DNA of 16,579 nucleotides from Anaerolineae bacterium. Its GTDB lineage: Bacteria > Chloroflexota > Anaerolineae > B4-G1. Positions within the stretch are counted from its first letter, which is position 1, and each line of letters starts with the position of its first letter. The DNA lies in NCBI GenBank assembly GCA_030612585.1, contig JAUWNP010000095.1:1-16579 (forward strand), read 5' to 3'. A model generated the notes under the pieces. That model did not search any database and was not told the DNA's origin. It saw only the letters and a list, made by a program, of their open reading frames with translations. Position numbers and translations under genes: made by a program. Shown piece by piece: positions 72-16,579 of this stretch.

Positions 72-1391
72 TCAAGGGCGTGGGGAGGGGAGTCCTTCCC
101 TCTCCCTTCCCCCCCAGGATTGGGGGGGACTGAGGAGGGGCGGGGGGACCGAGGGGGGGCGGGAGGTGAAAAGTCTGACCAGCCCACGTGCCCAGGCGAC
201 TATACCAGCCGCCGCCAGCACATCCAGCGCCAGCAGTGCCGGGAGGACGTAGCGGGGCATCTTCTTGGCCCCCAGGCACATCCCGACCAGGAAGAAGACG
301 GCGTAGGCCAGAAGCAAGAGGGCATCCACCCCGGTTTCAGAGAGCCGCCTGCGGCGTAGCAGATGAGCCGCCCCCAGCACCGCCGCCACGACCAGGAAGG
401 TCAGTTCCACTTCACCGGTGCGGAACAGCAGCGCCACTACATAGAAGAGCGAGCCAGGGTCCTCCCATAGCATCTGCCCCAGGAAGAAGGTCGGTGTGTC
501 GTGGGCGGCGCTGACGTGATGGGTCAGGCCCCACTTCACCGCCGCCAGCCCCCGTCCTGGCTCCACCCACATCACCGGCCAGAGGGCCACGTAGACCAGG
601 GCAGCGACGAGGAGCCAGAGGAGGAGATTGGAGATTAGAGATTGGAGACTAGAGATTAGAGACTGGAGATTAGAGATTGGAGATTGCAGATTGCGTGTTG
701 CGTTTGCCAGGAGGACGAGGGTGGTGAAGGGGAGAAGGAAGAGGGCCGTGGTCTTGACCAGGAGGGCGAGCCCGCCCAGCGCGCCGGAGAGGAGCAGCCA
801 GCGGGCGCGGGGCTCGCGGCGATGGAGGAGCAATGCCAGGGCAGAGAGGAGCATCAGCGTCGCCATCCAGGCGTCCAGGTGGAGGACCTTGGACTGGGTC
901 AGGTAGTAGGGGCTGATGGCCAGCAGAATGGCGGCGACGGCGGCTGTCGCTTCGCCGAAGAGACGGCGCAGCAGGAGGTAAATGCCGAGGATGCCCAGAG
1001 CGATCAGCAACGCCAGTGGCATCAGGGCAGCGGCGATCTCCGCCACAGGCACCGGCCCGAAGAAGTGGATGGGCTCGAAATCAGGGGGGACGGAGTGGGC
1101 AGCCGGGGTGATGCCGGAGATAGCCCAATAGATCTTCAGGCCAATCCCCGCTGGCCACATCAGCGCCACGCCAGGATGCTCCGAGTAGACGGTGTCCGCC
1201 CAGTTCCCCGTCAGCACCGCCTCGATGAAGCGGGCCGAGCGCAGGTACCAGACCAGCGGCCGGGAGACGGGCTGGATGGCACGGGGGAGGAAGGCGAGGA
1301 GGAAGAGAAGAATGGAGAATAGAGAATGCAGAATGGAGAATTGCGAGTTGCGAATTGCGAATGGCGAATGGCGGAGGGTGAAGCGGGTCAT
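72..1391 (-). CDS. Gene 1: short GT39-like membrane glycosyltransferase, paralog of gene 6, lacking the C-terminal module
   Basis: A 439-residue polytopic membrane protein with roughly nine to ten hydrophobic helices. It aligns with gene 6 almost throughout: the first helix ends LLAFLPRA, then PVSRPL, SEHPGV (70-75, first outer loop), SKVLHLDA (167-174), LLWLLVAA, WVEPG and a late K-x-x-RYxLP motif (377-383). These fit the GT-C/GT39 group, which transfers sugars from polyprenyl-phosphate carriers outside the membrane. Gene 6 continues for about 300 more residues with a beta-sandwich; this protein instead ends in a Pro/Gly/Arg-rich tail (about 411-439) encoded by a GC-rich palindromic repeat, so it may be truncated. 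Residues 7-27 and 234-257 are encoded by heptamer arrays. The ATG overlaps the gene 2 stop (ATGA), with GGAGG 7 bases upstream. The exact sugar and acceptor cannot be read. Confidence 0.85.
   Translation of the reverse strand: MTRFTLRHSPFAIRNSQFSILHSLFSILLFLLAFLPRAIQPVSRPLVWYLRSARFIEAVLTGNWADTVYSEHPGVALMWPAGIGLKIYWAISGITPAAHSVPPDFEPIHFFGPVPVAEIAAALMPLALLIALGILGIYLLLRRLFGEATAAVAAILLAISPYYLTQSKVLHLDAWMATLMLLSALALLLHRREPRARWLLLSGALGGLALLVKTTALFLLPFTTLVLLANATRNLQSPISNLQSLISSLQSLISNLLLWLLVAALVYVALWPVMWVEPGRGLAAVKWGLTHHVSAAHDTPTFFLGQMLWEDPGSLFYVVALLFRTGEVELTFLVVAAVLGAAHLLRRRRLSETGVDALLLLAYAVFFLVGMCLGAKKMPRYVLPALLALDVLAAAGIVAWARGLVRLFTSRPPSVPPPLLSPPQSWGGREREGLPSPRP
108..129. repeat. C7/G7 palindrome encoding the tail of gene 1
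   Basis: An 8-bp perfect stem (108-115 with 122-129, seven of the pairs C-G) encloses the loop AGGATT. It is translated as part of SPPQSWGG near the C-terminus of gene 1 and lies in a pyrimidine/purine-biased block (about 75-170). This looks like a small dispersed repeat that was captured as coding sequence. Confidence 0.55.
623..699. repeat. Heptamer array 1 (GGAGATT type, about 11 units) in gene 1
   Basis: Eleven consecutive 7-bp units in perfect register on the plus strand: GGAGATT, AGAGATT, GGAGACT and AGAGACT variants, then GCAGATT and GCGTGTT. Read on the coding strand it gives repeats of NLQS and LIS at residues about 232-257, a loop just before the helix that starts LLWLLVAA. The same site in gene 6 carries array 4. 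Confidence 0.9.
1311..1373. repeat. Heptamer array 2 (AATGGAG to AATTGCG type, 9 units) at the gene 1 N-terminus
   Basis: Nine 7-bp units in register: AATGGAG, AATAGAG, AATGCAG, AATGGAG, AATTGCG, AGTTGCG, AATTGCG, AATGGCG, AATGGCG. They encode residues 7-27 of gene 1 (FAIRNSQF, SILHSLFS) and supply the first part of its first membrane helix. Gene 6 has unrelated, non-repetitive sequence at this position. Confidence 0.88.
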
Positions 1392-3646
1392 CGCCCTACC
1401 TCCACTGCTCCCAGTGGGATCGCGTCGGTGGGGAGCCGCGCTCCATGCTCATCGAAGGCCGGCAGCCGCTCCCCCGTCTGGAGGTTGTAGAGCCCCACCA
1501 GCAGGGTGTAACGGCCCGGCGGGAGGTCGGCCGGCAACGGTACTGCCCGCCCATCGGCAATCACCTCTCCAGCAGCCCACAGGTCGGTGGGGTAGCCACC
1601 GCCCAGCGGCGGTCCGTCCCCTTGAGCCAGTGGTTGTCGCTCTTCCCCCACCAGGTGGACGAATACGCTGAGCGGCTGACCAGGGGGCGCGTCGCAGGCC
1701 CAGTATAAGGTGAAGCGAAGCATCTGCCCAGGCTGAACTGTGCCGCCCCACTCAGGATCCCAGGCTACCAGCCGCACTCCTTCCCCCAGCCGGTAAGCCA
1801 GGACCGTGCCAGTGGAGACCGCTGGCTCCCGCGCCGCCAGCCGGACCGGCCCCAGGCTGATCGTGTCCCGCCCATCGGCGGTGGTCAGCCGGGGGCCATC
1901 CGGCGCATAGAGCCCCAGGTCCAGCCGCAGCGCAGCCGGAGCCAGAGCATCCGCCGCCAGCGGCACCGGGACTGTGTCGGCGATGATCTCGCCAGGCCGC
2001 CAACGGCTGGTGGGACGGCGGCCCAGGCCGGGGTGGGTATCCCGCTCCCCGATCTTGTCTCTCTCCCGCCCGAATACCTGCAGGAAAAAGACGTAGTCCT
2101 GCTCTGTCTCCCCCAGTACCTGCCAGTAGAGGGTCACCTCCAGCACGTCGCCAGGGTAGAGAGTGTCGGTGGTAATGTCGTACCCCAGGAGGCGGGTCAG
2201 GCCGGGGTAGGTCGCATCCACCGGGTGCTGCGGGGCGACATCCTCAGGCGAGGTATAACAAGGCAGGGGCGCGTAGGCCGGAGACAACACGCCTACCAGC
2301 CCGTAGACTGCCAACGCCAGCATCCCGCAAGCCAGGACGACTGTCAGCCCAACCCGCCGGCGGGGCGGGACCCACTCACGCAGCCCCAGGATGTACAGAG
2401 GGGCCAGGGTTGCCAGCGCCACGAAGAGATAGCGGCCAAAATCGGCAGCCGCACTCACGGTCATCCGGGCGAAGTTGACCGCGAAGGCTACCAGCGGGGC
2501 ACTGCCCAGAATCAGCAGCACGGCAGGTGGGCACTCCCAGGGAATCCGCCCGGACCGGCGACGGGCCCAAAAGAGGGCCAGTCCCCCCGCCGCCGCCAGC
2601 CCCAGCAGCCGGGCCAGCCCGTAGACCAGGCGAGGCATTGGGATCTGCCCGTAGCCGAAGACTCCCCAAAGAGTGTCGTGCAGGAAGCCCAACTCCCCCG
2701 CTGCCGCCGCCAGGTCAGGCGCGTTCTCTCGCACTCCCCACACCCCTGTCTGGCGCACCATGCTCGTCGGCTCCCCGTAGAGGAGAATATTGCGGGCGAA
2801 CCACCATCCGCCGACCAGGAGCGCCAGCACCAGGACTATCCCACCCAGCCGAACTGTCTCCCGCCATACGGCGCGTCCCCGGTCGGTGAGGGGCCGCCAC
2901 AGGAGCGCCAACCCCACCGTAGGCGCTATCAGTAGGCAGGTCAACTTGGTCAGGAAGCCCAGCCCCACCAGCAACCCCAGCGCCGCGGCCCGACGCACCG
3001 TCGGGCCGCGTACCAGGAACCGGGCGGTCACGCACAGGGTGACCGCTGCTACCAGGTTTGCCAGTGCGTCGTCGTGGACCGAGGTGGTGATAAAGAGGAA
3101 CATCGGGTTGAAGGCCACCAGTGCCGCCGCCCCCAGCGCCAACGCCGGCCAGCGGGGGAAGAGTTCTCGTGCTGTCCCGTACACGCAGAGAATCGTGCCA
3201 GCCCCCATCAGCAGCGAGAGCCAGCGCACCAGGTGGACTCCCAGTGCCACGTCGTGGTAAGGGAAAGCCTCCAGACGGGGATCGTGCAAATATAGGCTCT
3301 TGTTGTCCACTCCCGGTTCCCACAGCCGGTAGGCCCAGAAGGGGTTGGGCCGCTCGACTATTGCCTCGAAGTGTTCGTTGGGCACCCAGAAAGTGAGTAG
3401 CGCCCCCAGGGCGTAGTAGAGGGGAGGATGGTGGGCCTTGGTTGGCTCTCCGGGCTCCAGTACCGGCAGCCGTCGCTCCTCAATCAGGAAGCGGATGTGG
3501 GCGTAGTTCAGCGCCTCGTCCGGGCTCTCGAAAAGAGGATTAACCAGGCTGTAGGCGAGGGCCAGGCTCAGATAGCCTGCCAGGATAAGCAGGATGCAGG
3601 AAACATGAAGCGGGAGGGGCCGATGGGGTTCCAGTCGTTCATACAT
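1388..3646 (-). CDS. Gene 2: DUF2142/GT-C-like membrane glycosyltransferase with two C-terminal beta-sandwich modules
   Basis: A 752-residue protein. After the first helix comes NPLFESPDE (36-44) and HHPPLYY (72-78), the acidic and His-Pro motifs of the first outer loop in GT39/DUF2142-type enzymes. RNILLYGEPT (285-294) matches the RNxxLYGD motif of DUF2142-like proteins. About 11 helices end near residue 465. Two soluble modules follow, about 481-602 and 620-750, each with an LTLYW- or FTLYW-like strand, a PT-x-W / GE-x-I-x-D segment and a GLY ending. The best paralog is gene 5, with the same two-module plan. The start is the ATG at 3646, giving an N-terminus like that of gene 5. A GTG at 3694 is in frame but lies inside a perfect hairpin. 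No good Shine-Dalgarno is visible before 3646, so the start is less certain. There are no heptamer arrays in this gene. Confidence 0.85.
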   Translation of the reverse strand: MYERLEPHRPLPLHVSCILLILAGYLSLALAYSLVNPLFESPDEALNYAHIRFLIEERRLPVLEPGEPTKAHHPPLYYALGALLTFWVPNEHFEAIVERPNPFWAYRLWEPGVDNKSLYLHDPRLEAFPYHDVALGVHLVRWLSLLMGAGTILCVYGTARELFPRWPALALGAAALVAFNPMFLFITTSVHDDALANLVAAVTLCVTARFLVRGPTVRRAAALGLLVGLGFLTKLTCLLIAPTVGLALLWRPLTDRGRAVWRETVRLGGIVLVLALLVGGWWFARNILLYGEPTSMVRQTGVWGVRENAPDLAAAAGELGFLHDTLWGVFGYGQIPMPRLVYGLARLLGLAAAGGLALFWARRRSGRIPWECPPAVLLILGSAPLVAFAVNFARMTVSAAADFGRYLFVALATLAPLYILGLREWVPPRRRVGLTVVLACGMLALAVYGLVGVLSPAYAPLPCYTSPEDVAPQHPVDATYPGLTRLLGYDITTDTLYPGDVLEVTLYWQVLGETEQDYVFFLQVFGRERDKIGERDTHPGLGRRPTSRWRPGEIIADTVPVPLAADALAPAALRLDLGLYAPDGPRLTTADGRDTISLGPVRLAAREPAVSTGTVLAYRLGEGVRLVAWDPEWGGTVQPGQMLRFTLYWACDAPPGQPLSVFVHLVGEERQPLAQGDGPPLGGGYPTDLWAAGEVIADGRAVPLPADLPPGRYTLLVGLYNLQTGERLPAFDEHGARLPTDAIPLGAVEVGR
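1399..1403 (-). promoter_or_regulatory. Ribosome binding site of gene 1
   Basis: GGAGG on the minus strand, 7 bases before the ATG at 1391 and inside the 3' end of gene 2. It supports the ATGA overlap start. Confidence 0.65.
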
Positions 3647-3663
3647 TGCAGCGTAGGCGAAGA

Positions 3664-3694: not shown

Positions 3695-3720
3695 CCAAGA
3701 GCGATCAGAGCACAGGGCCG

Positions 3721-5692: not shown

Positions 5693-5738
5693 AGCAGATT
5701 TTTCCTATGAAAGCGCAGCCCTGGCTGCCAACCGCGCT

Positions 5739-5766: not shown

Positions 5767-5778
5767 GTTCCGAGACGA

Positions 5779-7491
5779 TCAGTCCAGGGAGGGCAAGGCC
5801 GTTCGATAGACAATCAGCCACTCGTCGGTGTAGTAGCGGACATCGGCAGTCGCCCGGTCGAGATAGGTCAGCACCGCTTCCAACTGCCCTTCATTCAGAT
5901 GGGCTGGGTGGACGACGACGTAGCGCACTCCGATGTCGGCCAGCGCTGCCAGTTCCGCCGCTGGGTCGCCGGTGGGGTCGGGCTGCCGGTCGTGCCACAT
6001 CGCCCGCAGCAGACCGTTGGCCTCGATAAAGTCGTATGCCCCCTCCGGTGGGCGGGAGACGTAGCCGGTGACGGTCGGCCGGCCGTGCACGGTCTGATAG
6101 TACATGTAGACTTTGGACAGATCCCTGGTGATGGGCAGGTCCACGATAGCGAAATCGCCGGGTTCGATGGCGAGTTGGCGGTAGAAGTCGGGGACGCCGG
6201 GCTGGGTGGTGGGAAATGGCCAGGCCCAGTACTCCAGCAGCACCAGCACACTCAGGACAACGGCGACGAGACCCGCCTGGCGCACAGGAAGACGGCGCAG
6301 AAGATCGCGCACTGCCACACCCACGACCATCGCCAGGCAGAGCCCTACTATGATATTAAACCGCCCCGGATTGCGCAGCGAGCGCACGGGCAGACTCCAC
6401 CCGATCAGCCGGTAAGGCAGCGATATCTGGGGATAGGGCACGCCGTTAATGCGCAAGAATGGTCCCAAGGCCAGCAGCCAGAACGCCAGCAGGCCCCCAA
6501 ACCAGAACCAGCCCCGGCGCGTATTGGCACGCCACCGCAGCAGCCCGTAGCCGATCAGGGCCAAGGGCAAGTAGCCCAGGGAGACAGCGTGATCCTTGTT
6601 GCGCAGGAAGCGTTGATGAACCGGTGCAGCCAAGCGGCCCCACAGCGGATGGTAGAGATTGGGGAGCGCACACGCGACCAGGTCGGTCTGCGTCTCTCCT
6701 TCCTTGCCCAGGTAGTGATCCTGTCCCGCCGGGTTCACGAACTGTTCCCAGGCCAGGGACGCAAGGAACGGGCCGGTGAGCAGGCCCAATGTGATCACCA
6801 TCACCAACAGGGCCTGCCAACTCGTCCCTGCCCACTCGTGGCGCTCTGTCAGCCAGGTGTGTAGGAGCCAGAGGCCACCCAGCATCCCACTCAACGTCAG
6901 CAGGTGCCAGCCGGAGAGCCCGGCGCAGGCGAAGAAGAGCCCGGCCAGGAAACCATCTAGCGCCCGTCCACGGCGCACCGCCCGCGTCAGGAAAAGCAGC
7001 GCGAAGGGAATCCACTGCACGCTGAGCAGGTTAGTGTGGTTGCGCTGCGCGAAGTGATAGGGGTAGAAGGCGTAGACTATGCCGGCGACAAAGGCCGCCC
7101 TCCGGTCACCGGTCACCTCGCGGGCTAGCAGATAGGCCCCGAACCCGGTCAACGGCCAACTCCACCAGACGGTGAAGTTGTAAGCGGCCACATTCCCCAT
7201 CAGCCCTCGCAGTAACCACCACACGAAGGTGTTCAGCCAGGAGAAACTGAGAAAGTAGAGATTGACGCCCTGAGGATAAAAGAGCATCCTGGTGTGGTAG
7301 GGCGACTGGCCCTGGCCCAAGGCGCGGGGGATCCACCAGTTGCCCCACTGGAAGACGTACATATCGAAGCCGTCGCCGGCTAACCGAGTGCCAAAGCGGG
7401 CGATGAGCGGCCAGGCGTAGGCCAGTGCCAGAAGAGTGTAGGCCACCAGTGCCAGGAGGTCTAACCAGCGGTCGCGGGACTTCTCTGTCAT
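5779..7491 (-). CDS. Gene 4: GT-C-like polytopic membrane protein without a beta-sandwich module
   Basis: A 570-residue membrane protein with about 11-12 helices. The first outer loop carries GDGFDMYVFQW (39-49), where the two Asp are candidate catalytic or metal-linked residues as in other GT-C enzymes. Later landmarks are YPQGVN (72-77), FYPYHFAQRNHTN (142-154) and NPGRFN (374-379). After the last helix (about 407-425) a soluble alpha/beta tail of about 145 residues contains a DxGVRYVVVHPAHL segment (519-532), like tails seen on YfhO-like or other large bacterial membrane glycosyltransferases; I cannot name the family exactly. Unlike genes 2 and 5-8 it has no beta-sandwich module and no heptamer array. 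The ATG at 7491 overlaps the gene 5 stop (ATGA). The frame stays open upstream to 7743, but that part overlaps the clearly coding end of gene 5 and reads as low-complexity Arg/Gly/Pro-rich sequence. Confidence 0.83.
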   Translation of the reverse strand: MTEKSRDRWLDLLALVAYTLLALAYAWPLIARFGTRLAGDGFDMYVFQWGNWWIPRALGQGQSPYHTRMLFYPQGVNLYFLSFSWLNTFVWWLLRGLMGNVAAYNFTVWWSWPLTGFGAYLLAREVTGDRRAAFVAGIVYAFYPYHFAQRNHTNLLSVQWIPFALLFLTRAVRRGRALDGFLAGLFFACAGLSGWHLLTLSGMLGGLWLLHTWLTERHEWAGTSWQALLVMVITLGLLTGPFLASLAWEQFVNPAGQDHYLGKEGETQTDLVACALPNLYHPLWGRLAAPVHQRFLRNKDHAVSLGYLPLALIGYGLLRWRANTRRGWFWFGGLLAFWLLALGPFLRINGVPYPQISLPYRLIGWSLPVRSLRNPGRFNIIVGLCLAMVVGVAVRDLLRRLPVRQAGLVAVVLSVLVLLEYWAWPFPTTQPGVPDFYRQLAIEPGDFAIVDLPITRDLSKVYMYYQTVHGRPTVTGYVSRPPEGAYDFIEANGLLRAMWHDRQPDPTGDPAAELAALADIGVRYVVVHPAHLNEGQLEAVLTYLDRATADVRYYTDEWLIVYRTALPSLD

Positions 7492-9788
7492 GGCACCACC
7501 CGCATCCGTGTCAGCACCACGTGCGTGGCCTGCATGCGACCACCCTCGGGGATAGTGGGCAGGGGGACGATGCTCCCCTCCTCGTCGAAGCGGTAGATGG
7601 TCAGGCGCACGTCGTAGACCCCAGGCGGTACGTCGAAGGTGGTCAGTTCGTAAATATCCTTTATCAACTCGTGGGTCTGCCAGGCGGAGGTGGGCGCTGT
7701 GCCGCCTACGGGCCAGGTGTCCTGCTGCGCCGCCTTGACCCAATCGCTGTCCACAAATTGTACTGAGACGGTGTAATTAACGTCCATCCGCCGCAGGCCC
7801 TGCCAGTAGAGTGTCAGGCGCACCGTCTCGCCCGGACGCGCGGCCCGCTGGTCGAGGTCGTACCCCACCAGCGCCATCCGGTCGCCGAAGTTGACGGAGA
7901 TGGGATTGGGATAGTCGCCCGGCTGGGTGCGCACCTCGACCTGCCCAAAGCGCACATGGTCGTCGCCACTGCTTGCGGTCAGGCGTGCCCCACTCGTAGC
8001 TTCGTATAGCCCCACCTCGATCTGGGCCATGTCGGGCGTGTAGGCGGTGGAGGGCACCTGTAGAACGTACCGGTCGGCCCAGCGGAAGCCCGGCTCCAAC
8101 CAGGTGGTGGAAAGCAGGCCTAGACCGGGGAAGGTATCTCGCTGCGCCACCAGCAGGTCGTGTTTGCCCAGCAGGTGCACGAAGACGGTGTAGTCCCGGT
8201 CGGTGGGGGCCAGCGCCTCCCAGTAGAGGGTCACCTCCACCTGCCCGCCCGGCTCTATTCCCCCCGCCCCTCCCGAGGCGGAGGAGAGTTCCGTCCCCAG
8301 GCTGTATCCCAGAAGCCGCATCGCCCCGCCGAAGTTGGCCTCTAGCCGGTGGGGAATGGCGGCAACCTGCGCGTCCGTCAGCGGTTCCGGCAGAGCGTAG
8401 GCCGGGCTGATCCAGAGCCAGGGAGCCAGCGCCGACAGGCACAGCAGGAAGAGAGCAAAGGCCGCCACCGCCCACCGCCCCCAGCGCCGGGGCAGCCAGC
8501 CGCTCAAACCCAACACCAGCAGCAGCGACCAGACCGAGAGGGCGGGAAAGACCAGCCGGCCCTGGGATGACCAGGTGGTGGAGGCCCAAAACGACCAGGG
8601 TATGACGACGCCCAGTGCCCAGAGGGTACAAATGGCGAATGACAAATGAGCAAATGACAAATGACAAATGGACGAATGGTCTCGCGCCCTGACGATTTGT
8701 TGGACCAGCAGGGCGACCAGGCCGAGGGCGGCGATTATGGTCAGTGCGTTGAGCGCGCTGTACACCCAGGCGGGCATCGGGACGTTGATGCCGCCGAAGT
8801 TGCCCCAGTAGCCAGCCGCAAAACTGTACCGCTCGCGCCACAACTGGGCCAGGTCGGCCGGCACGTCCCGCGTGCCCAGAATCTCGAAGAAGGCGTTAAA
8901 ACCGGTGAGGTCGCCGTAGAGCCGCAGGTTGCGCAGGTACCACCACCCGGCGACGAGCAGCAACGGCAACAACGTCGCCGCCCCGCCGGCGAAGAACTCG
9001 GCCCACGAGCGCCGCCGCACCGCCCGTACCACGACGACCAGTGCCGTGATGACGGTCAGCGCCAGCGAACTGGACTTGGTCAGTGCCGCTAGGCCGAGCA
9101 CCACACCCAGCGTCAGGTAGCGGCCCACAGGCACCCTCCGAGACCCTCCGGGTTTCGGAAAACCCGAAGGGTCTGGCAGCAGCCGCAGCAGCATCAGCAA
9201 CGCCAGGCTGCACAACGGCACGATCAAGTTGTCGTTGTTGACTGCACCGGAGATAAATACGACCATTGGGGTGAAGGCGTGAACGGCCGCAGCACCCAGG
9301 GCCAGGACAGGCCGATCGGGCAAGACCTCGCGCACGATGAGGTAGGTCAGGTAGACCGCTGCCGCCCCCATCAGGACGGACAGGAACCGCACGACGTGAA
9401 CTGCCAGCACTGTCCCTCGCCACGGGAACGATTCCAGCGGGGGGTTGTGGACGACCAAGTTGACGTTGCCGTCGGGTGTAGCGCCCGGGTCCACGTGGTG
9501 GTTGAGGTGACGGACGGTCTCCATATCGGACGTATCAACCCAACAGGTCGCCAACGCGCTGAGAAAGTAGTAGAGTGGTGCCTGGCTGCCCTCCTGTCGC
9601 CAGGTGGTTTCGACGCCTGGTTCTTGCACCGGTAGGCCCCAGTGGTCGGCGATGTATTTCACCATGGGATAGTGCCACTTCTCGTCGGAGACCTCGAAGG
9701 GTGGGACGATGATGCTGTAGGTCATCCCCAGCAGCACGAACAGTGCCAGAATCGCCGCCAGCAGTGCCCGTTCCGTTCGCTCGCTCAT
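7488..9788 (-). CDS. Gene 5: DUF2142/GT-C-like membrane glycosyltransferase with two C-terminal beta-sandwich modules
   Basis: A 766-residue paralog of gene 2. VPPFEVSDE (28-36) and QAPLYY (69-74) mark the first outer loop, and RNLRLYGD (286-293) matches the DUF2142-type motif. The membrane part ends near residue 468. Module 1 spans about 484-620 (VTLYWEAL, DYTVFVHLLG, AQRDT) and module 2 about 630-766 (LTLYWQGL, NYTVSVQF, AQQDT, PTSAW). Compared with gene 2 there is an 11-residue insertion at 206-216 encoded by a 32-bp palindrome, a heptamer array encodes 371-387, and module 1 has a Ser/Gly/Ala-rich loop insertion. The ATG at 9788 overlaps the gene 6 stop (ATGA) and has AGGAGG 5 bases upstream, which decides against the longer open frame to 9866. 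Probable role: an outer-face sugar transferase using a lipid-linked donor; sugar and acceptor unknown. Confidence 0.87.
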   Translation of the reverse strand: MSERTERALLAAILALFVLLGMTYSIIVPPFEVSDEKWHYPMVKYIADHWGLPVQEPGVETTWRQEGSQAPLYYFLSALATCWVDTSDMETVRHLNHHVDPGATPDGNVNLVVHNPPLESFPWRGTVLAVHVVRFLSVLMGAAAVYLTYLIVREVLPDRPVLALGAAAVHAFTPMVVFISGAVNNDNLIVPLCSLALLMLLRLLPDPSGFPKPGGSRRVPVGRYLTLGVVLGLAALTKSSSLALTVITALVVVVRAVRRRSWAEFFAGGAATLLPLLLVAGWWYLRNLRLYGDLTGFNAFFEILGTRDVPADLAQLWRERYSFAAGYWGNFGGINVPMPAWVYSALNALTIIAALGLVALLVQQIVRARDHSSICHLSFAHLSFAICTLWALGVVIPWSFWASTTWSSQGRLVFPALSVWSLLLVLGLSGWLPRRWGRWAVAAFALFLLCLSALAPWLWISPAYALPEPLTDAQVAAIPHRLEANFGGAMRLLGYSLGTELSSASGGAGGIEPGGQVEVTLYWEALAPTDRDYTVFVHLLGKHDLLVAQRDTFPGLGLLSTTWLEPGFRWADRYVLQVPSTAYTPDMAQIEVGLYEATSGARLTASSGDDHVRFGQVEVRTQPGDYPNPISVNFGDRMALVGYDLDQRAARPGETVRLTLYWQGLRRMDVNYTVSVQFVDSDWVKAAQQDTWPVGGTAPTSAWQTHELIKDIYELTTFDVPPGVYDVRLTIYRFDEEGSIVPLPTIPEGGRMQATHVVLTRMRVVP
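8628..8678. repeat. Heptamer array 3 (ACAAATG type) in gene 5
   Basis: Units on the plus strand: ACAAATG, GCGAATG, ACAAATG, an 8-bp AGCAAATG, ACAAATG, ACAAATG, then an 8-bp GACGAATG. They encode residues 371-387 of gene 5 (SICHLSFAHLSFAIC), a loop-to-helix stretch. Positions 8638-8660 are identical to part of array 9 in gene 8. Confidence 0.87.
9142..9173. repeat. In-frame palindromic element in gene 5
   Basis: Two 14-base arms (9142-9155 and 9160-9173) match at 13 of 14 positions around the loop CGGA. The element encodes DPSGFPKPGGS (residues 206-216). Gene 2 lacks these residues at the matching site: from the R(F/L)L motif to LTK there are 26 residues in gene 2 and 37 in gene 5. Confidence 0.75.
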
Positions 9789-11917
9789 TCTCGCCTCCTG
9801 ACCCACGGCCACACGATTCCGGCCGCGATGACCGCAAGCCACGTCCCTGAGAGCGCCCAACGCCACCAGGGGACCGCCGGCCGCACCTGCACCGTCGCCA
9901 GCACCACCCGGTCCTCTGGCAACCGCCCGGTATCGGCCCCGAACGCTGCCAACCGCTCCAGCGTTGCCGGGTCGTACATCCCCACGCTGAGCCGGTAGTC
10001 GCCAGAGGGGGCGTCCGGCGGTAGAGCCAATTCGTAGGGGTCCTCGACCAGCACACCGATCTCCCAGTCGCTCGTGGGCCGGGTGCCGCGCGCGGGGGGC
10101 GTGTCTTGTTGCGCCACCAGCCGCCCGTCCGGTCCCTGCAGGTGGACAAAAACCGTGTAATCCCCATCCACCGGCTCCTTCGCCTGCCAGTAAAGGGTCA
10201 GAAGCAGTACATCGCCTGGACCGGCCTCATCCTGTGCCAACCGGTAGCCCACCAGCCGGACCGCCTCCCCCAGATGGGCATCCAGCCGGTGTGGGATGAC
10301 CGGTTCCGCGCCTGGCCGGTACACCCAGGCGTAGGGCATACCGCCGAAGGAGGCGGCGAACTCAGGCTCACGGAACTTGTAGGTCTGCTCCCACAGCGCC
10401 CCCCAACGTGGGTGTTCTCGACCTCGTATCGTGTACTGCACGCCGAACACCAGATAGTCCACGTCCTCCCCTACCTGGGCAATGTCGTAGACCGGGGCGC
10501 GAACGTACTGGGCCAGCATCTCGTTGGCCAGGAATTGGGTGCCAACGACGAAGTCCTCCGCGCCAGGCCGACCGTCCACGTATTGTCCCGCTATGTCCAG
10601 CCCCTCCCCAAAGTCGGCGGGGGGAAGGGCGCGCACGGCTGCCCCTGTACCGCCTGGAAGGCCATTATAATGGGTGCCGAAGTAGGGAAAACAGGGCAAG
10701 ACGAGAAGCGCCTGCACAGCGAGCGCCAGAGGGATGGCATATCGAAGGCGCAATCTTGTGGAAGCGCGCACTCGTTTGACACACCAGACAAGCCCATACG
10801 CGCTGAGCACATCCAGCGCCAGCAGGATGGGCAACATATACCGGCCCTCCTTCCGGCTCCCCAAGGCCATCTGGGCAAAATAGAAAATGGCGAACGCACC
10901 TAACAAGAGAGCGGGCAACGACCGCTCTCTGCGCCGCGTCAGAGCCGAGCCTAGTCCCACGAGGCAAAAGGGTACGGTGAGAAAGGTCATACGGAACAAC
11001 AAAACGTCCACGTAGAAGGGTGCGCCGGGATCTCCCATCATCAACTCACCCCGGTGAAACCGGGGTAGGGAGTGCGCCTGATCCACATGGAGGATGATCC
11101 CCTGGCGAATGACCACGTCCAGCGTGTGCCCCGGCTGAACCCACATCGAGGGCCAGAACAAGAGGCAAACAGCAGCGGCAACAAGGAGCCAGAGGAGGAA
11201 ATTGCGAATCACGGATTGCGAACTGCGAATTATAGATTGCAGATTGCGGAGGGAGAGGAGCCAATCAGCCAGGAGGCAAAGACCCAGGAACGGAATCAGG
11301 AAAAGTGCCGTCACTTTCGTGAGTACCGCCAGACCGCCCAGGCCCGCTGAGATGACGATGTGCCGCGAGTGGCCTTCCCGCAGGTAGATCAGCATCCACA
11401 GGGCGGAGAGGAGCATCAGTGTCGAGAGTGCCGCATCCAGGTGGAGGACCTTCGAGTTGGCTAAGTAGAAGGGATCGAGAGCCCACAGGAGCGCCGCCAC
11501 CCACGCTACCCGGCGGTCGAACAGGCGGCATAGGAGTACCCAACCCCAGAGGATGCCTAGCGCGACGATCAATGCCAGTGGGAGTATCCCCACCGTTACC
11601 CGGTCAGCGAAGGCGTATCCCTCCGTCTCCAACGGCGCGGGTGGGTTCAGTCCGAGGGACGATTGCAGCGCATACCAGCCCCACAGCGCCGCTCCCGAAA
11701 GCCACATCACCGTCACGCCGGGGTGCTCGGAGAAGAGGGTGCCTGCCCAGTCGCCGTGCAGCACCGCCTGGAAGAATTGCGCCGAGCGGAAGTACCACTG
11801 GAGGGGTCGGGAGACCGGGTAGACAGCGCGAGGGATGAAGGCCAGCAGAAAGAGTCCCACCAGCGCCCACCGTTCCCAGCGGTTCACGTGCGCCTGAACG
11901 TTATCTCTACCGACCAT
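9785..11917 (-). CDS. Gene 6: GT39-like membrane glycosyltransferase with one beta-sandwich module and a final membrane helix
   Basis: A 710-residue protein, the full-length paralog of gene 1. The first helix (WALVGLFLLAFIPRA) leads to PVSRPL and SEHPGV (63-68) in the first outer loop; SKVLHLDAALSTLMLLSAL follows at 155-173, and K-x-GRYMLP (356-363) precedes a late helix, as in PMT/ArnT-type enzymes. A soluble region (about 410-535) leads into one beta-sandwich module (about 543-680: RLVGYRL, LTLYWQA, DYTVFVHLQG, AQQDT, PTSDW, YRLSVGMY). Uniquely here, another hydrophobic helix (about 684-706) follows the module and ends in WVRRRE, so both ends of the module would be tied to the membrane. Residues 223-240 come from a heptamer array at the same site as in gene 1. 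The ATG at 11917 lies inside the gene 7 end (11-base overlap), with AAGGA upstream. A GTG at codon 11 is a possible alternative start. Confidence 0.87.
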   Translation of the reverse strand: MVGRDNVQAHVNRWERWALVGLFLLAFIPRAVYPVSRPLQWYFRSAQFFQAVLHGDWAGTLFSEHPGVTVMWLSGAALWGWYALQSSLGLNPPAPLETEGYAFADRVTVGILPLALIVALGILWGWVLLCRLFDRRVAWVAALLWALDPFYLANSKVLHLDAALSTLMLLSALWMLIYLREGHSRHIVISAGLGGLAVLTKVTALFLIPFLGLCLLADWLLSLRNLQSIIRSSQSVIRNFLLWLLVAAAVCLLFWPSMWVQPGHTLDVVIRQGIILHVDQAHSLPRFHRGELMMGDPGAPFYVDVLLFRMTFLTVPFCLVGLGSALTRRRERSLPALLLGAFAIFYFAQMALGSRKEGRYMLPILLALDVLSAYGLVWCVKRVRASTRLRLRYAIPLALAVQALLVLPCFPYFGTHYNGLPGGTGAAVRALPPADFGEGLDIAGQYVDGRPGAEDFVVGTQFLANEMLAQYVRAPVYDIAQVGEDVDYLVFGVQYTIRGREHPRWGALWEQTYKFREPEFAASFGGMPYAWVYRPGAEPVIPHRLDAHLGEAVRLVGYRLAQDEAGPGDVLLLTLYWQAKEPVDGDYTVFVHLQGPDGRLVAQQDTPPARGTRPTSDWEIGVLVEDPYELALPPDAPSGDYRLSVGMYDPATLERLAAFGADTGRLPEDRVVLATVQVRPAVPWWRWALSGTWLAVIAAGIVWPWVRRRE
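9794..9799 (-). promoter_or_regulatory. Ribosome binding site of gene 5
   Basis: AGGAGG on the minus strand, 5 bases before the ATG at 9788. It selects this start over the longer open frame and supports ATGA coupling to gene 6. Confidence 0.7.
11197..11245. repeat. Heptamer array 4 (GCGAATT type, 7 units) in gene 6
   Basis: Units in register: GGAAATT, GCGAATC, ACGGATT, GCGAACT, GCGAATT, ATAGATT, GCAGATT, then GCG. They encode about residues 224-240 (RNLQSIIRSSQSVIRN) in the loop before LLWLLVAA, the same site as array 1 in gene 1. Confidence 0.85.
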
Positions 11918-14369
11918 CGCCCTGTTCCTTGATGGGTCCCAGGATCAGATGATCTGTCTCAGACCCGGCAGGCGGAATCCGCTCCATTGTGTCCAGGCGG
12001 TACAGGCCCACGTTGAGGGAATATGGAAGTGTGGGAGTATGGGAGGATGGAAGCGTGAAGACGTGCGTCTGGGCAAAGACGTCCCCTTTCTGCCAGTTTT
12101 CCATCGGGAAACTCAGCCCATCGGCAACTGCTACCAGTGTGCCCTGAGCGTCCACGAGATGAGCCATCACAGAGAGGGGAAAGTCGGGCCGGTTGAGCAC
12201 CTCCCAGTAAGTGTACAAGGTCAACGTGCCGTCCGGCGCTGGCCCGACCGGGTCTACCTCGTACCCCAGAAAGCGGGCCACGTCGGCAAATTGCGGCTGA
12301 TCGTCAGAACCCTCCAGCGTTGTCAGGTGAACAGGTTGGCTTCCGGCCCCCTCTCCCCAATAGACGGTCAGTCCCAGGCGCTTGCTGGTCCGGCGGCCGT
12401 GGAAAACGATTTGTGCGTCGTTGCCATAGGTGGACGCCACCGTCGGCCCATCGGTGTCATCTGGGATGACGTACCAGCCGGGGGCTGTGCCGGCCGGGTA
12501 GACCCAACTGGAGCGACAGTCGAAATATACCAGGCGCAGGTCCGGGTTCCCCAGCGCGTCTCGAATCTGGTCAGCCTCCAGTGCAGGTACGGGAGCGTAA
12601 CAGACGGCTGCCCACTGCCCTTCGAGTTGGTCTACCACGTCGTAGATGAATATCGAGTATCCAACTTTGGCCGTCGGCTGGCGACGCCGGAACCAATCGA
12701 AGACATCCGGGTCTTCCAGGAGTTGTAAATTGGACGCGCTGATGGCGTACACTCCTGGCTCCGGATTCAACGGACTGAAGTCTGAGGGTGACGAAGGAGG
12801 CGGCATGGGTAGCGGATCGTACTCAATGCCGTACCGCTCTGGCCTGGCTGTCCCAAAATAACTCAACTTGATCCGGTCAATCCCTCGTTCATCCAGATAC
12901 GCCCTCAGCCTTTTCAAATCCTGTCCCCAGTCCAGATTCGAATCCACCGCGTAGCGGTACCCCTGATCCGGCCCGCCGACCAGTTCGTTGAAGTAGGCCA
13001 GGTAGTATGGATGGGTCCACAGACTCGACAGCGTCATCCACAGAACCAGCAAGCAATGACCAATGACCAATGACCAATGACCAATGGGTGTATGCCACCA
13101 GGAGCGGCGCATACCGCCCCCGAGGGCGGGGGCTACGAGCAGGTAGTGGAAGGCAGTCGCAGCGCCCATCGCGACGAACGGGACCACCGGCAGGATATGG
13201 CGGTACCCGATGTTGATCCTGCTGGCTATGCTGACGGCGAAGTAAAATGCCGGAAAGATGATGATCAGAAACCTGAAATTTCCTATCTGAGCAAGCAGAT
13301 CGTTGCTTTTTGTGCCCCCTGGGGTGCGAGGAAGCATCTTGTCAGTCAAAAAAAACGGTTTCTTGGGCCAGGCCATCACAACGGCCACGACCAGCAATAT
13401 CAACAGAGGAAGCGGCGTCTTGATCACAAACAGAACCGGGAAGTAGTACCACCAGCCCTCGTCGGAGAGTTGGCCGAGGAAGAAGGCACGCTGGCCAGAG
13501 GCCTGATGTTGCCACAAACGTTGCAGGTTGTCCCAATGAGTCGGCATCGGCATCCACGTGCCAGCCGGTGACCACACGCCTGACTCGAAACGGTAGAGAG
13601 CCCACAGCACCAGGAGGCTTACGCTCAAGATCGCCACGAACCCGATCAGCAGGTTCCACAGGCTCGCCTTCCTCCGCCACGCATGCCACAAGAGCACCAG
13701 CCCCAGAACCGGCAGCAGGATCAGTGCCGATAACTTGGCCCCCCAGGCCAGTCCCAGCGTGAGTCCCGCCAGCAGAAGCCGCCCTGATGTCGGCCGGTCC
13801 AGCCAGCAAGAGAAAGTATAACACGCGGCGCACGCCAGGCAGGTGACTGCCATATCGGTGGTGATCAGGCTGGAGTGAGCCAGAATGTTCGGGTCGAAGG
13901 TGCATAGAAATAACGCTGCCAGCCCCGCCCAGCGCCCGAACAGTTCACCCGCCCACCGGCATACCAGGGCCGATAGCACCAGGCCCAGCGCCAGCATAGG
14001 CCAGCGGGCCAGGAACAGCACTCGCTCGATGGGCCATCCGGGCTCCAAGAGCAGGTGACGGGTGACGTCAATACAAGAGGCACGGTTCCAGCCTTTCAGG
14101 TCAGCCGGCGAGGGAATATCTGGCTCCAGCGCCAGAAACAGGCCACTCAAGGCGTGGCTCAAAGGAGGATGCTCATACTGCAGGCGCAGGTCGCCAGTCC
14201 GCCAGTATGCCACACCCCGGACCAGGTGAAACGGCTCATCCATAGTCGGCGACTGATCCCGGACGTTGACCAGCACCCGTCCCCAAAACAACAACAACAG
14301 AGCAACGAACAATGAACAATGAACAATGAACGATGACCGACGATTCACGCTGATACCTTCTGTGTTCAT
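11907..14369 (-). CDS. Gene 7: GT39 (PMT_2-type) phospholipid-carrier-dependent glycosyltransferase
   Basis: An 820-residue protein and the most canonical GT39 enzyme here. MDEPFHLVRG (43-52) and YEHPPL (65-70) form the first outer loop with the Asp-Glu pair typical of the family; ITTDMA (169-174), KTPLPLL (317-323), RINIGYRHILPV (384-395) and SNLDWGQDLKRL (477-488) are recognisable GT39 landmarks. About 10-12 helices are followed by a soluble region and a divergent beta-sandwich module (about 695-812: FLGYEV, LTLYTYWEVL, LNVGLYRLDTMER). Residues 10-23 and 428-440 are encoded by heptamer arrays and about 769-782 by an octamer array. Residues about 412-423 are encoded by a GC-rich palindrome, and about 337-365 look like an AT-richer loop insertion. 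The next Met lies past the first helix, so the N-terminal array must be translated. The ATG overlaps the gene 8 stop (ATGA). Confidence 0.9.
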   Translation of the reverse strand: MNTEGISVNRRSSFIVHCSLFVALLLLFWGRVLVNVRDQSPTMDEPFHLVRGVAYWRTGDLRLQYEHPPLSHALSGLFLALEPDIPSPADLKGWNRASCIDVTRHLLLEPGWPIERVLFLARWPMLALGLVLSALVCRWAGELFGRWAGLAALFLCTFDPNILAHSSLITTDMAVTCLACAACYTFSCWLDRPTSGRLLLAGLTLGLAWGAKLSALILLPVLGLVLLWHAWRRKASLWNLLIGFVAILSVSLLVLWALYRFESGVWSPAGTWMPMPTHWDNLQRLWQHQASGQRAFFLGQLSDEGWWYYFPVLFVIKTPLPLLILLVVAVVMAWPKKPFFLTDKMLPRTPGGTKSNDLLAQIGNFRFLIIIFPAFYFAVSIASRINIGYRHILPVVPFVAMGAATAFHYLLVAPALGGGMRRSWWHTPIGHWSLVIGHCLLVLWMTLSSLWTHPYYLAYFNELVGGPDQGYRYAVDSNLDWGQDLKRLRAYLDERGIDRIKLSYFGTARPERYGIEYDPLPMPPPSSPSDFSPLNPEPGVYAISASNLQLLEDPDVFDWFRRRQPTAKVGYSIFIYDVVDQLEGQWAAVCYAPVPALEADQIRDALGNPDLRLVYFDCRSSWVYPAGTAPGWYVIPDDTDGPTVASTYGNDAQIVFHGRRTSKRLGLTVYWGEGAGSQPVHLTTLEGSDDQPQFADVARFLGYEVDPVGPAPDGTLTLYTYWEVLNRPDFPLSVMAHLVDAQGTLVAVADGLSFPMENWQKGDVFAQTHVFTLPSSHTPTLPYSLNVGLYRLDTMERIPPAGSETDHLILGPIKEQGDGR
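12025..12064. repeat. Octamer-like array in the gene 7 C-terminal module
   Basis: Five degenerate 8-bp units on the plus strand: GGAAGTGT, GGGAGTAT, GGGAGGAT, GGAAGCGT, GAAGACGT. They encode about residues 769-782 (VFTLPSSHTPTLPYS), a loop of the beta-sandwich where the paralogous modules have a short LPPDAPSGDY-like turn. Confidence 0.55.
13053..13087. repeat. Heptamer array 5 (CCAATGA type, 5 units) in gene 7
   Basis: GCAATGA, three exact CCAATGA units, then CCAATGG. Encodes residues 428-440 (PIGHWSLVIGHCL) between two late membrane helices. A GC-rich palindrome lies 26 bases away. Confidence 0.9.
13114..13129. repeat. Small GC-rich hairpin sequence in gene 7
   Basis: CCGCCC-CCGA-GGGCGG, a 6-bp perfect stem, sits in a longer G/C block (13114-13133). 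It is translated as part of VAPALGGGMRR beside array 5 and may be a captured palindromic repeat. Confidence 0.45.
14302..14343. repeat. Heptamer array 6 (ACAATGA type, 6 units) at the gene 7 N-terminus
   Basis: GCAACGA, three exact ACAATGA units, ACGATGA, CCGACGA. Encodes residues 10-23 of gene 7 (RRSSFIVHCSLFVA), leading into the first membrane helix. Confidence 0.88.
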
Positions 14370-16570
14370 CGGACTGTCACCACCGCCAGAGGGATCGTGT
14401 CACCGATGGGCGCGCCGTCCGGGTCACAGACCGGCAGTCGCTCACCGGTGCCCAGACCATACATACCGACGAGCAACGGAATGTCTCCCGGGGGTGTCGA
14501 GGGGGCAACCGGAATGGTGTACTCGTCCCGCACGATCTGGCCTGGCTCCCAGAAGATGGTCGGTGATAGCGCGCACCCCGGTGTCCCGTCCTGCTGACCC
14601 CACATCGCTCCGTCGTAGAGTTGGTTAAAAACCTGATACCTGGTCTCTATCGGTCTGAGTGCCTTCCAGTAGAGCACCAGGTGGATGTTCCCCCCGGGCC
14701 GGGCATCGGCGACATCCAGACGGTAGCCCAGCAGTCGCACTGCCTCCCCTAGCGTGTAGCCTGCCGGGATATAATCGGTGGGCAGCGGTGGCATCACGCT
14801 CGCCGGAATGGTCCGAGCGTCAAAACGGGAAACGTAATCTTCAACGTGATAAATGTCAGGTGGAGCCGCTGCTGGACCTCGGTGGTAGATCAACAGTTTG
14901 GGCTCCCCTGCGACCCTAATCTCTCCCCAAAGGTGATAAATTGCCTCGATCTCATCCCGATTGATCGGCACCTCATCTTGAACATTCTGAGCAATTATGT
15001 ACCATTCGGGGTCAGGACAATACGTGCGCTCCGCCCCCCGGGTGTACCAGCCCGCGACCTCCTGCTCCTCGTTGCTGGCGTAGACGCCACTCAGGGCTCC
15101 TTCTTCGATCAGGAGACCGACGACCTTCCAGCCAGCCCGGTAAGGGAAACCGAAGTAGCCATCGTGAGGCAACTCAGCGTCGGGCCGCCAATAGAGGGCC
15201 GGGCGATGGGCAGGCCAGGTGCGCTTGATCTCATGGTCGTGCTGGACGAACATCAGGTAAGGATAATAAGCCAAAAGGACGAGAATGGCAAGGCTGGAGA
15301 GGAGTAATGCGTGAAACGTGAAACGTGAGACGTGAGATGTGGTGCGCAGTGCGTGGAAGTGTTGCCAGATGCGGGTGAGCGGGAGAGAGGCCAGGAGGCA
15401 GGCGCCAGGGAAGACGTTCAGGACATGAGTACGGGGGTCCCGGACCAGGAAGTAGTAAAAAAGGAACGGGGCGCCGAACCATAGCCAGGCGGCGCACGAT
15501 GGAGCCGGAGAACGGCGTGAGAGGAGAATCGCCGTCAGTAGACCGGCCAGCACAGGACCCACCCAAGTTGGAGATTGGAGATTGTAGATTGTAGATTGTA
15601 GGATCAAGAGAAGGTAGCAGGCGGTGGGGATCAGGAGGCCCAGGCGGCGGAAGGAGAGGAAAGAGGCCACGACGAGCAGGCCAATCATGCCGATGAGGTA
15701 GTACATGGAGTTATAAAACGTGGCGAGAGGTAGCGAGGAGAGCAGGTTGTTGTATAGCGGCCCTTTGGTGCCCACGCGAGCGCCGCTCAGGTACCCCAGG
15801 GTCTTGGCGAAGTTTGGATGACGAATGAACGGGAGGTAAAAAAGAGCAAAGATAGCGAAAGCCAACGCGCCTGCGGCCAAAACCTCCACCCAGAAGGTGC
15901 GCCTCTCAGATTGAGCCCGCCATAGACGTCGACCGACGATGTACGCAGCAGTTGGCAGCGCCAACCCCGCGTCATAGTGGGCCAGGAGGCCGAAGGCCAG
16001 CAACGCCGCGCCGACGATGAGCCACCGGCGTCCTTCTCCCTCCGACCAGCGCCAGAGAGCCAGCAATGCCAGTGTCGTCACCGCCAGCACGAGGCTCTGG
16101 TACTGCACGACGCGGCCAAAGCCAACGAAATACCCGTTGACCGCCAGAAGCAGCGCGGCGATCTGCCCGCTCCGCCCGTTGAACCAGCGCCGGCCCAGCA
16201 GGTAGAGGGCCACGACGCCCAAAAGACCGGCGAACGCGAAGGGCAGCCGGGCTTGCCATTCGTTGATCGTGCCAGAGAGTGTCCAGGTGGCCATGGGGAG
16301 CAGGACCTCAGCAGGACCTTTCTGGTGATAGAACAGTTGTGCATCGTCCCCCAGGATGGCACGGGCGGCCCGCATCATCACGACTCCCTCGTCGCCCTGG
16401 AATTCGCTGTAGCCCAGGTAGGGCAGGCGGAAAAGGACAGCGGCAGGAATGACCAATGACAAATGAGCAAATGACAAGTGACCAATGATCAATGACCAAT
16501 GACCAATGACCAATTTAAAATCCAAAAGCGGAGGACGGGGGGTGGCGAGGATGAGGACGAATATGAGCAT
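14366..16570 (-). CDS. Gene 8: ArnT/PMT-like GT39 membrane glycosyltransferase with one beta-sandwich module (5' end may be outside the window)
   Basis: 734 residues are visible from the ATG at 16570. The frame stays open for the three codons up to the window edge, so the true start may lie outside. FQGDEGVVMMRAARAI (57-72) gives the Asp-Glu pair of the first outer loop and HQKGP (82-86) the following motif, both typical of ArnT-like GT39 enzymes; RLPFAFAGLLGVVALYLLGR (108-127) is a well-conserved helix of this group. About 10-12 helices run to residue 443. A soluble stretch (about 450-600) is followed by one beta-sandwich module (about 605-734: VRLLGYRL, LVLYWKAL, FWEPGQIVRDEY, LLVGMYGLGTGERL). 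Three heptamer arrays are translated, at residues 19-40, 325-334 and 411-421. It heads the visible operon; any promoter lies to the right of the window. Confidence 0.87.
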   Translation of the reverse strand: MLIFVLILATPRPPLLDFKLVIGHWSLIIGHLSFAHLSLVIPAAVLFRLPYLGYSEFQGDEGVVMMRAARAILGDDAQLFYHQKGPAEVLLPMATWTLSGTINEWQARLPFAFAGLLGVVALYLLGRRWFNGRSGQIAALLLAVNGYFVGFGRVVQYQSLVLAVTTLALLALWRWSEGEGRRWLIVGAALLAFGLLAHYDAGLALPTAAYIVGRRLWRAQSERRTFWVEVLAAGALAFAIFALFYLPFIRHPNFAKTLGYLSGARVGTKGPLYNNLLSSLPLATFYNSMYYLIGMIGLLVVASFLSFRRLGLLIPTACYLLLILQSTIYNLQSPTWVGPVLAGLLTAILLSRRSPAPSCAAWLWFGAPFLFYYFLVRDPRTHVLNVFPGACLLASLPLTRIWQHFHALRTTSHVSRFTFHALLLSSLAILVLLAYYPYLMFVQHDHEIKRTWPAHRPALYWRPDAELPHDGYFGFPYRAGWKVVGLLIEEGALSGVYASNEEQEVAGWYTRGAERTYCPDPEWYIIAQNVQDEVPINRDEIEAIYHLWGEIRVAGEPKLLIYHRGPAAAPPDIYHVEDYVSRFDARTIPASVMPPLPTDYIPAGYTLGEAVRLLGYRLDVADARPGGNIHLVLYWKALRPIETRYQVFNQLYDGAMWGQQDGTPGCALSPTIFWEPGQIVRDEYTIPVAPSTPPGDIPLLVGMYGLGTGERLPVCDPDGAPIGDTIPLAVVTVR
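15311..15338. repeat. Heptamer array 7 (GTGAAAC type, 4 units) in gene 8
   Basis: GTGAAAC, GTGAAAC, GTGAGAC, GTGAGAT, with weaker units on either side. Encodes TSHVSRFTFHA (residues 411-421) just before a late membrane helix. Confidence 0.82.
15570..15597. repeat. Heptamer array 8 (GGAGATT/GTAGATT, 4 units) in gene 8
   Basis: Two GGAGATT units followed by two GTAGATT units in register. Encodes QSTIYNLQSPT (residues about 325-334) between two membrane helices. The GGAGATT unit is the same as in array 1 of gene 1. Confidence 0.85.
16452..16515. repeat. Heptamer array 9 (ACCAATG type, 9 units) near the gene 8 N-terminus
   Basis: ACCAATG, ACAAATG, an 8-bp AGCAAATG, ACAAGTG, ACCAATG, ATCAATG, ACCAATG, ACCAATG, ACCAATT. 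Encodes residues 19-40 (KLVIGHWSLIIGHLSFAHLSLV), most of the first hydrophobic segment. Confidence 0.9.
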
Positions 16571-16579
16571 ATTGACGGC

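Follow-up and report, generated by a model that had tools for sequence, protein, structure and literature searches.

The stretch of DNA described here (the window, 16,579 nucleotides of contig JAUWNP010000095.1, assembly GCA_030612585.1) is part of a metagenome genome of the Chloroflexota/Anaerolineae type and carries tandem heptanucleotide arrays inside genes for membrane glycosyltransferases. Eight genes, all of them on the minus strand, were recognized both from their open frames and with a gene caller based on a codon model. Six (genes 1, 2, 5, 6, 7 and 8) match PMT_2 (PF13231) above the curated cut-off, gene 3 matches PKD in Pfam, and gene 4 gave no Pfam match at E 0.001. When the whole window was searched with Tandem Repeats Finder (TRF) and with a lag-7 scan at two settings, eight clear arrays and one degenerate array were detected, distributed over genes 1, 5, 6, 7 and 8 (Table 1), and no period-7 array was seen in genes 2, 3 and 4. 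The original prediction of nine arrays confined to these five genes is thus confirmed, with the array of gene 6 (11199-11248) being the degenerate one, found by TRF only as a period of 21 with 72% match and missed by the lag-7 scan at both settings. Gene 2, which matches PMT_2 and has no arrays, represents an array-free gene of the glycosyltransferase type within the same cluster.

The strict lag-7 count is nine stretches because array 1 (623-694) is split in two. Among the periods from 4 to 30 that were scanned in the window, 7, 14 and 21 were seen, plus 15 at one place. The arrays lie far above the shuffled-codon null against which it had been proposed to measure them: the mean number of stretches was 0.0 when codon order was shuffled within genes and 0.11 when synonymous codons were exchanged with the protein kept, and a whole-window shuffle that preserves dinucleotides gave 0.01 (100 rounds per kind of shuffle, with a maximum of 1 stretch). 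Head-to-tail units of 7 nt in such excess are what characterizes bacterial tandem heptanucleotide arrays of the kind described as short tandemly repeated repetitive sequences (STRR) or long simple sequence repeats (LSSR); the STRR of cyanobacteria are tandem heptamers of the same kind. Perfect runs within the strict stretches are short (2.0-4.7 units) and exceed four units in only one of the nine.

A perfect stop-free array encodes the same heptapeptide in all three frames, which had been pointed out before and is correct as arithmetic, with the correction that the gain of a single unit nonetheless puts the downstream sequence out of frame. Ohno reportedly considered oligomer repeats that are readable in all frames, a work that did not surface among the literature matches listed. 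That all arrays lie inside genes and in the same coding orientation, as had also been predicted, is what we see, but it is partly forced, as the window is 98.7% coding and all eight genes are on one strand, so that array position and orientation inside the window carry little information by themselves.

Table 1. Genes of the PMT_2 type and heptanucleotide arrays in the window
Feature	Position	Strand	Remarks
Gene 1, PMT_2/PMT glycosyltransferase, arrays 1 and 2	72..1391	-	Pfam
Gene 2, PMT_2 protein, array-free internal comparison	1388..3694	-	Pfam
Gene 5, PMT_2/DUF2142 protein, array 3	7488..9788	-	Pfam
Gene 6, PMT_2/PMT glycosyltransferase, array 4	9785..11917	-	Pfam
Gene 7, PMT_2/PMT glycosyltransferase, arrays 5 and 6	11907..14369	-	Pfam
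Gene 8, PMT_2 glycosyltransferase, arrays 7-9	14366..16579	-	start beyond window; homologue P0001 has 830 aa
Array 1, AATCTCC family (NLQSPIS), ~10 imperfect units	623..694	-	gene 1, residues ~233-256
Array 2, AATTCGC/CATTCTC-type units, ~9	1310..1373	-	gene 1, residues ~7-27, N-terminus
Array 3, CATTTGC/CATTTGT-type units	8629..8671	-	gene 5, directly precedes predicted helix
Array 4, degenerate, mixed units	11199..11248	-	gene 6; site is the array 1 site of related gene 1 (by eye)
Array 5, CATTGGT (HWSLVIG), 4.7 perfect units	13052..13087	-	gene 7, precedes predicted helix
Array 6, TTCATTG (FIVHCSL)	14303..14336	-	gene 7, N-terminus
Array 7, TTTCACG (FHVSRFT)	15310..15337	-	gene 8, precedes helix
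Array 8, TCTACAA/CAATCTC-type units (STIYNLQ)	15568..15602	-	gene 8, helix end and next loop
Array 9, GTCATTG/CATTTGT-type units (SLVIGHW)	16448..16515	-	gene 8, residues ~19-41 of the window part

Structure models were obtained for genes 1 and 8. The gene 8 model (predicted local distance difference test, pLDDT, 89.3; predicted template modelling score, pTM, 0.87) has its best fold matches in ArnT (5ezm and 5f15), with a template modelling (TM) score of 0.38-0.39 by query and 0.49 by target, and for 5ezm an E value of 1.4e-8 at probability 1.00. The model of gene 8, the one gene for which a fold search was made, thus has the GT-C fold. In this model array 7 (residues 412-420) abuts helix 414-442, array 8 (residues 323-333) takes in the last part of helix 309-328 and the loop that follows (pLDDT 76-80), and array 9 runs into helix 26-48, in a region where residues 1-32 are below pLDDT 50. 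In the gene 1 model (pLDDT 84.4, pTM 0.87), the residues of array 1 make up a loop and continue to the middle of helix 242-270, at a block pLDDT of 85-98; array 2 leads into helix 11-38 (block pLDDT 45, 67 and 95). Genes 1 and 7 each have an ATG that overlaps the stop codon of the neighbouring gene (gene 2 and gene 8, respectively), which makes it likely that the two N-terminal arrays (2 and 6) are translated.

The array sites are shared with orthologues. Homologues were taken for gene 8 (the best 120 of 463), gene 7 (the best 120 of 6288) and gene 6 (the best 120 of 270), and were aligned, as proteins only, with gene 8 (the first 60), gene 7 (29) and gene 6 (59). In the gene 8 alignment the three window sites bear arrays of differing heptamer families in many of the nearer relatives, and more distant relatives show ordinary helix-edge sequence there; by eye, the alignments of genes 7 and 6 likewise have arrays of other families at the window sites. 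At the site of array 9, peptides of the types SLVIGHW, FGIWDLG, HSPFSIL, FIVHCSL and NTQYPIP were found across the orthologues. Even close relatives differ: P0002, which is 89% identical to gene 8, has FGIWDLG at the site of the window's SLVIGHW, and P0121, which is 96% identical to gene 7, has SLVIGHW at the site of FIVHCSL. The units of this second pair are one base apart when that of P0121, a protein entry, is back-translated from its repeat.

Words of seven residues that a perfect heptamer array could encode occur in 42, 37 and 21 of the 120 homologues of genes 8, 7 and 6, respectively, compared to 7, 5 and 0 when each protein is shuffled. They cluster at the array sites of the window (near 120-135, 420 and 510 of a full-length gene 8 relative, at 15 and 420-435 of gene 7, and at 225 of gene 6). 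Further clusters are at positions that are array-free in the window (near 240 and 330 of gene 7 and 495 of gene 8). The array of gene 6 itself is too degenerate for this test, as P0241, which is identical to gene 6, gave no hit. RIANCEL, encoded by the reverse strand of AATTCGC, is present among the gene 7 homologues, so that the other strand of a family that is open in both orientations is used too.

As the window is probably a metagenome contig, the arrays might be suspected of having been created during assembly. We give this virtually no credence: arrays occupy the same sites in orthologues from more than one source (ncbi, jgi, ena, lgn), the reading frames remain open, and in one of the genomes discussed below (G068) arrays are found on a contig of 3.99 Mb. 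An artefact was one of the outcomes that the original prediction had named as refuting it.

Length differences between orthologues show a preference for steps of seven residues, which correspond to three units. Among 92 nearest-neighbour orthologue pairs, 20 of the 54 indels of at least 6 residues in array zones have a length divisible by 7, compared to 6 of 50 elsewhere (Fisher p = 0.0035), where the cut at 6 residues was chosen after the table had been seen; for indels of all lengths the values are 20/95 and 6/151 (p = 6e-5). Such steps would also be expected of phase-variable contingency loci, in which gain or loss of one unit switches a glycosyltransferase and a third step restores the frame with seven residues more or less. 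This is how neuO of E. coli K1 works with its AAGACTC units, according to the part of the source consulted (PMC3046976), and the host genes in the window are likewise glycosyltransferase-type enzymes. However, perfect runs stay below four units in eight of the nine strict stretches, and seven of the nine arrays are away from the N-terminus.

Genome-wide tests were made in proxy genomes, in place of the window's own genome, which presumably resembles them. The samples of the nearest relatives found by gene 8 (G401 and G338, which are 56-57% identical) contain 0 and 3 arrays, respectively, and the array-rich G242, chosen for its high array count, was therefore used as proxy, with a sample of 516 kb of its 3.2 Mb (L064-L083, L128-L167). 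It contains 102 period-7 places, of which 61 are intergenic, 31 coding and 10 partial; with only 16.1% of the sampled DNA being intergenic, this is a strong intergenic excess (p = 6e-27, partial places left out). The excess persists without the stretches that had been chosen knowingly (50 intergenic, 26 coding and 9 partial places in 445 kb, p = 1e-21). Periods of 6, 8, 9, 12 and 15 are represented in G242 by 3, 32, 4, 8 and 9 places, so that period 7, with many units unrelated to each other, dominates. Period 8, which likewise is not a multiple of three, is thus the second commonest short period in this genome.

A similar distribution was seen in G068 (24 places in 400 kb: 19 intergenic, 1 coding, 4 partial) and in a set with one locus per genome from 30 of 35 matching genomes (19 intergenic, 5 partial, 6 coding, with the partial loci excluded from the p value; three of the 30 are G242, G125 and G068), where five of the six coding loci are in the open orientation and one is at a gene end. 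Four contigs of G125, chosen for arrays, have 17 places in 90 kb (9 intergenic, 3 coding, 5 partial). In G338 there are 3 places in 143 kb (0 intergenic, 2 coding, 1 partial), and the same lag-7 scan gave no array in 217 kb of G401. Arrays are therefore dispersed and mostly intergenic in G242, G068 and the single loci, a pattern not repeated by the few arrays of G338.

This intergenic excess also speaks against contingency loci. Among 74 arrays with same-strand flanks in G242, G125 and G068, two gave candidates for a gene split by a frame shift, both ambiguous, in a set that is small and of low power; the aligned parts of the two candidates lie apart in fused homologues, so that separate or fused domains are as likely an explanation. 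Taken together, we consider phase variation an unlikely primary reason for the presence of the arrays.

Particular units were searched for in the class to which the only related genome contig found belongs (249 or 386 genomes). Three copies of TCATTNG are present in 35 of 249 genomes and three copies of its reversed control in 39 of 249 (control by eye, p = 0.71); a role for the TCATTNG sequence as such is unsupported, the reversed control being equally common. Three copies of CATTCNC occur in 76 of 386 genomes and its control in 8 of 386 (control by eye). CATTCNC thus exceeds its control, which indicates that not every unit is equal.

Intergenic arrays show no preference for an orientation. 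In G242, families with stop codons on one strand only, when located between same-strand genes, lie in 14 cases with the open strand and in 17 cases with the stop-bearing strand in gene direction (p = 0.72). A one-sided orientation inside genes is therefore what stop codons alone would leave behind. Among the 31 coding arrays of G242, two have a stop in the sense direction and both are at gene ends; arrays with sense stops were left out of the tests of hydrophobicity (29 rows) and of helix position.

Coding arrays of G242 are enriched in membrane proteins: 17 of 31 are in proteins with at least 4 predicted helices, to which 18.8% of coding bases belong (p = 8e-6). Counted by distinct host gene the ratio is 9/21 (p = 0.0096), and when five stretches chosen via known matches are removed, 13 of 26 arrays (p = 0.0006) and 8 of 19 genes (p = 0.038) remain, at a baseline of 20.0% of coding bases. 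The other samples are too small for this comparison (G125 0/3, G068 0/1, G338 2/2), and among the single loci three of five open coding cases, again a small sample, are in proteins with at least 8 helices. One G242 gene (L166, 506-2896), encoding a membrane protein of 797 residues, has four heptamer arrays of four families. In the window, 6 of the 9 strict stretches lie within 10 residues before a predicted helix compared to 15% in the null (two of the stretches being one array), and in the membrane hosts of G242 this applies to 6 of 17 arrays compared to 14% (p = 0.023), with 5 of 17 far from any helix compared to 57%. These values have to be read with the caveat that hydrophobic arrays can themselves count toward a predicted helix.

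The original prediction had interpreted the arrays as recruited spacers, that is, heptamers favoured as ready-made, frame-independent modules which flank membrane segments. Such modules might aid helix insertion or tune loop length. The position just before helices, the membrane-gene enrichment in G242 and the repeated occupation of the same sites agree with this and give the interpretation partial support. However, comparing coding with intergenic DNA in the proxies, as had been suggested, revealed mainly intergenic arrays and an even orientation there, and the peptides of G242 showed no difference in hydrophobicity between membrane and other hosts (p = 0.86, 29 arrays). Where a G242 family is open on both strands, the more hydrophilic orientation is used in 9 of 11 coding cases (p = 0.065), and many homologues do without such a peptide. 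Nor is it generally true that the opposite orientation is the more hydrophilic one, as had been claimed, since the AATTCGC family is less hydrophilic there (Kyte-Doolittle hydropathy, KD, 0.16 vs -0.46). Part of the hydrophobic, membrane-like look of the arrays follows from the genetic code: across all 1170 heptamers (strands merged), the mean KD of the open strand is 0.18 if only the other strand has stops, compared to -0.51 for heptamers that are open on both. The membrane enrichment of G242 can be explained by tolerance without any recruitment, and a tolerated by-product fits the data better than a ready-made spacer; recruitment strikes us as rather improbable.

Pairs of arrays in inverted orientation were also encountered. 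In L138 (8426-8498) such a pair is contained in one open frame and encodes the hydrophilic KDERRKT followed by the more hydrophobic LRPSSFV, which directly precedes a hydrophobic stretch. Other inverted pairs are tens of bases apart and able to form hairpins (L044-L045 of contig G068:C1; L076 of G242, 8650/8696).

A small mobile or hairpin element, in which inverted heptamer-array pairs are inserted as a unit and in frame where tolerated, similar to Rickettsia palindromic elements or NEMIS, would produce close inverted pairs. Three of these are present in the 400 kb of G068 (on C1 at 10436/10482, 15040/15078 and 39414/39459; units by eye), and five of 18 close pairs in G242 have units that are reverse complements with at most one base of difference, the match being exact in two of the five. 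But five of the 18 are direct within one base, so that inverted pairs are not in excess, and no array of the window is part of an inverted repeat of at least 14 nt within 300 nt (the ends of elements and duplicated target sites not being looked for). We regard such an element as very unlikely.

The explanation that we favour, and which is probably correct in its main features, is that heptamer arrays arise genome-wide by slippage, are filtered by stop codons, and are tolerated at the edges of transmembrane helices. Replication slippage in steps of 7 nt would (probably) generate and homogenise arrays at many places of the genome, most of them between genes and there in either orientation. Inside a gene, an array would be kept only if it is read in the stop-free orientation and if the number of its units does not disturb the frame downstream, so that net changes amount to three units or seven residues. 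This in-frame requirement would give rise to the excess of three-unit steps. The site, too, would have to accept an insert whose length varies, and in multi-pass glycosyltransferases such a site may typically be a transmembrane helix edge. The arrays would then be nearly neutral translated passengers with a fast turnover of units.

Several points weigh against this explanation. That slippage generates the arrays is something we infer and have not directly observed. In the array zones, 34 of the 54 larger indels are of lengths that 7 does not divide, which makes the three-unit step a tendency and not a rule. Of the genomes compared, the two nearest by gene 8 have hardly any arrays, and none of the three in G338 is intergenic. 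The enrichment in membrane genes and before helices exceeds an even spread and could hint at use. Finally, most of the genome-wide testing was done in a single proxy that had been selected for its many arrays, with genes called by a home-made program.

If a mostly non-coding class of repeats can leak into proteins in this way, then with a unit that is not a multiple of three and gives one peptide in every frame, it is stop codons and the tolerance of the site that decide on retention. As the same sites switch heptamer family between orthologues that are 89-96% identical at the protein level, the membrane glycosyltransferases of these bacteria represent a natural laboratory for the birth and homogenisation of repeats and possibly for phase switching. 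There is a slim chance that a 7-nt process, largely indifferent to the unit, keeps planting and homogenising arrays at membrane-edge sites of glycosyltransferases, and that surface glycans vary through gain and loss of units (off/on, or by seven-residue steps) in which a number of enzymes from one cluster would take part simultaneously.

Among the closest known systems is the poly-psi repeat of neuO in E. coli K1, where AAGACTC heptanucleotides encode RLKTQDS heptads and copy number changes by slippage (PMC3046976, consulted in part, as were the other sources cited). Both are translated tandem heptanucleotides in the gene for a glycan-modifying enzyme, with three units equalling seven residues; the window has such heptanucleotides in open frames that are probably translated. 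Unlike the window, neuO is described as having one array of one family at the gene start, in a phase-variable enzyme of the left-handed beta-helix family (PMC3046976). In the window the arrays are several in number, belong to many families and lie within multi-pass membrane enzymes, for which switching would be hypothetical, and a perfect array at the 5' end of a gene is lacking, as two of the nine arrays are N-terminal with perfect runs of 2.4 and 3.6 units.

Heptamer-rich bacterial genomes are also known. GGGAATC of Xanthomonas and GGGGA(C/T)T of Nostoc are over-represented and prefer intergenic DNA, with 68% of the heptamers of Nostoc PCC7120 being intergenic and some intragenic (PMC4692102). 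For TAACTGA of Beggiatoaceae, stop codons in one orientation were described as limiting coding use, and the heptapeptide of the other strand was written out (PMC4679880). G242, G068 and the single loci share with the genomes of the first study dispersed tandem heptamers that are mostly intergenic and in part intragenic (PMC4692102), but the parts of the two papers seen treat one family each (three are mentioned for Calothrix) and G-quadruplex or regulatory roles (PMC4692102, PMC4679880), in contrast to the many families and the shared coding sites with turnover reported here. Within the same phylum, Chloroflexus aurantiacus has abundant satellites, with the highest number (76) among the bacteria tabulated (PMC6749651); the satellite family singled out there seemingly has a unit of 14 nt, judging by its name, and the part consulted makes no mention of coding sites in membrane enzymes.

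Rickettsia palindromic elements and Neisseria NEMIS occur as in-frame parts of proteins if they can be read without a stop, and a form of NEMIS with stops in all frames lies outside genes with one exception (PMC2229807). Unlike the arrays of the window, these are defined elements of ~105-155 bp (PMC2229807). Within the limits given above (at least 14 nt, within 300 nt), no array of the window belongs to an inverted-repeat element of this type or of the miniature inverted-repeat transposable element (MITE) type, and inverted array pairs were seen only in the other genomes. Frameshift motifs (PMC3711429) are relevant by contrast only. Three further repeats of the window differ in kind: a weak 8-bp repeat in the C-terminal part of gene 7 (12017-12050; 4.2 copies, 76% match by TRF), a G-rich 19-bp repeat near the 3' end of gene 1 (123-163; 2.2 copies by TRF), and an inverted repeat overlapping the latter (98-139; 79% complementary).

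Translated heptamer arrays in membrane enzymes of Chloroflexota were not found in titles and abstracts among the literature matches listed, which mostly leave subscription journals uncovered. There is precedent both for heptanucleotides that are translated, in neuO of E. coli K1, and for bacterial genomes rich in heptamers; what is new is that several arrays occur per gene, that the sites are shared with turnover of the heptamer family, and that the arrays lie at the membrane edge.

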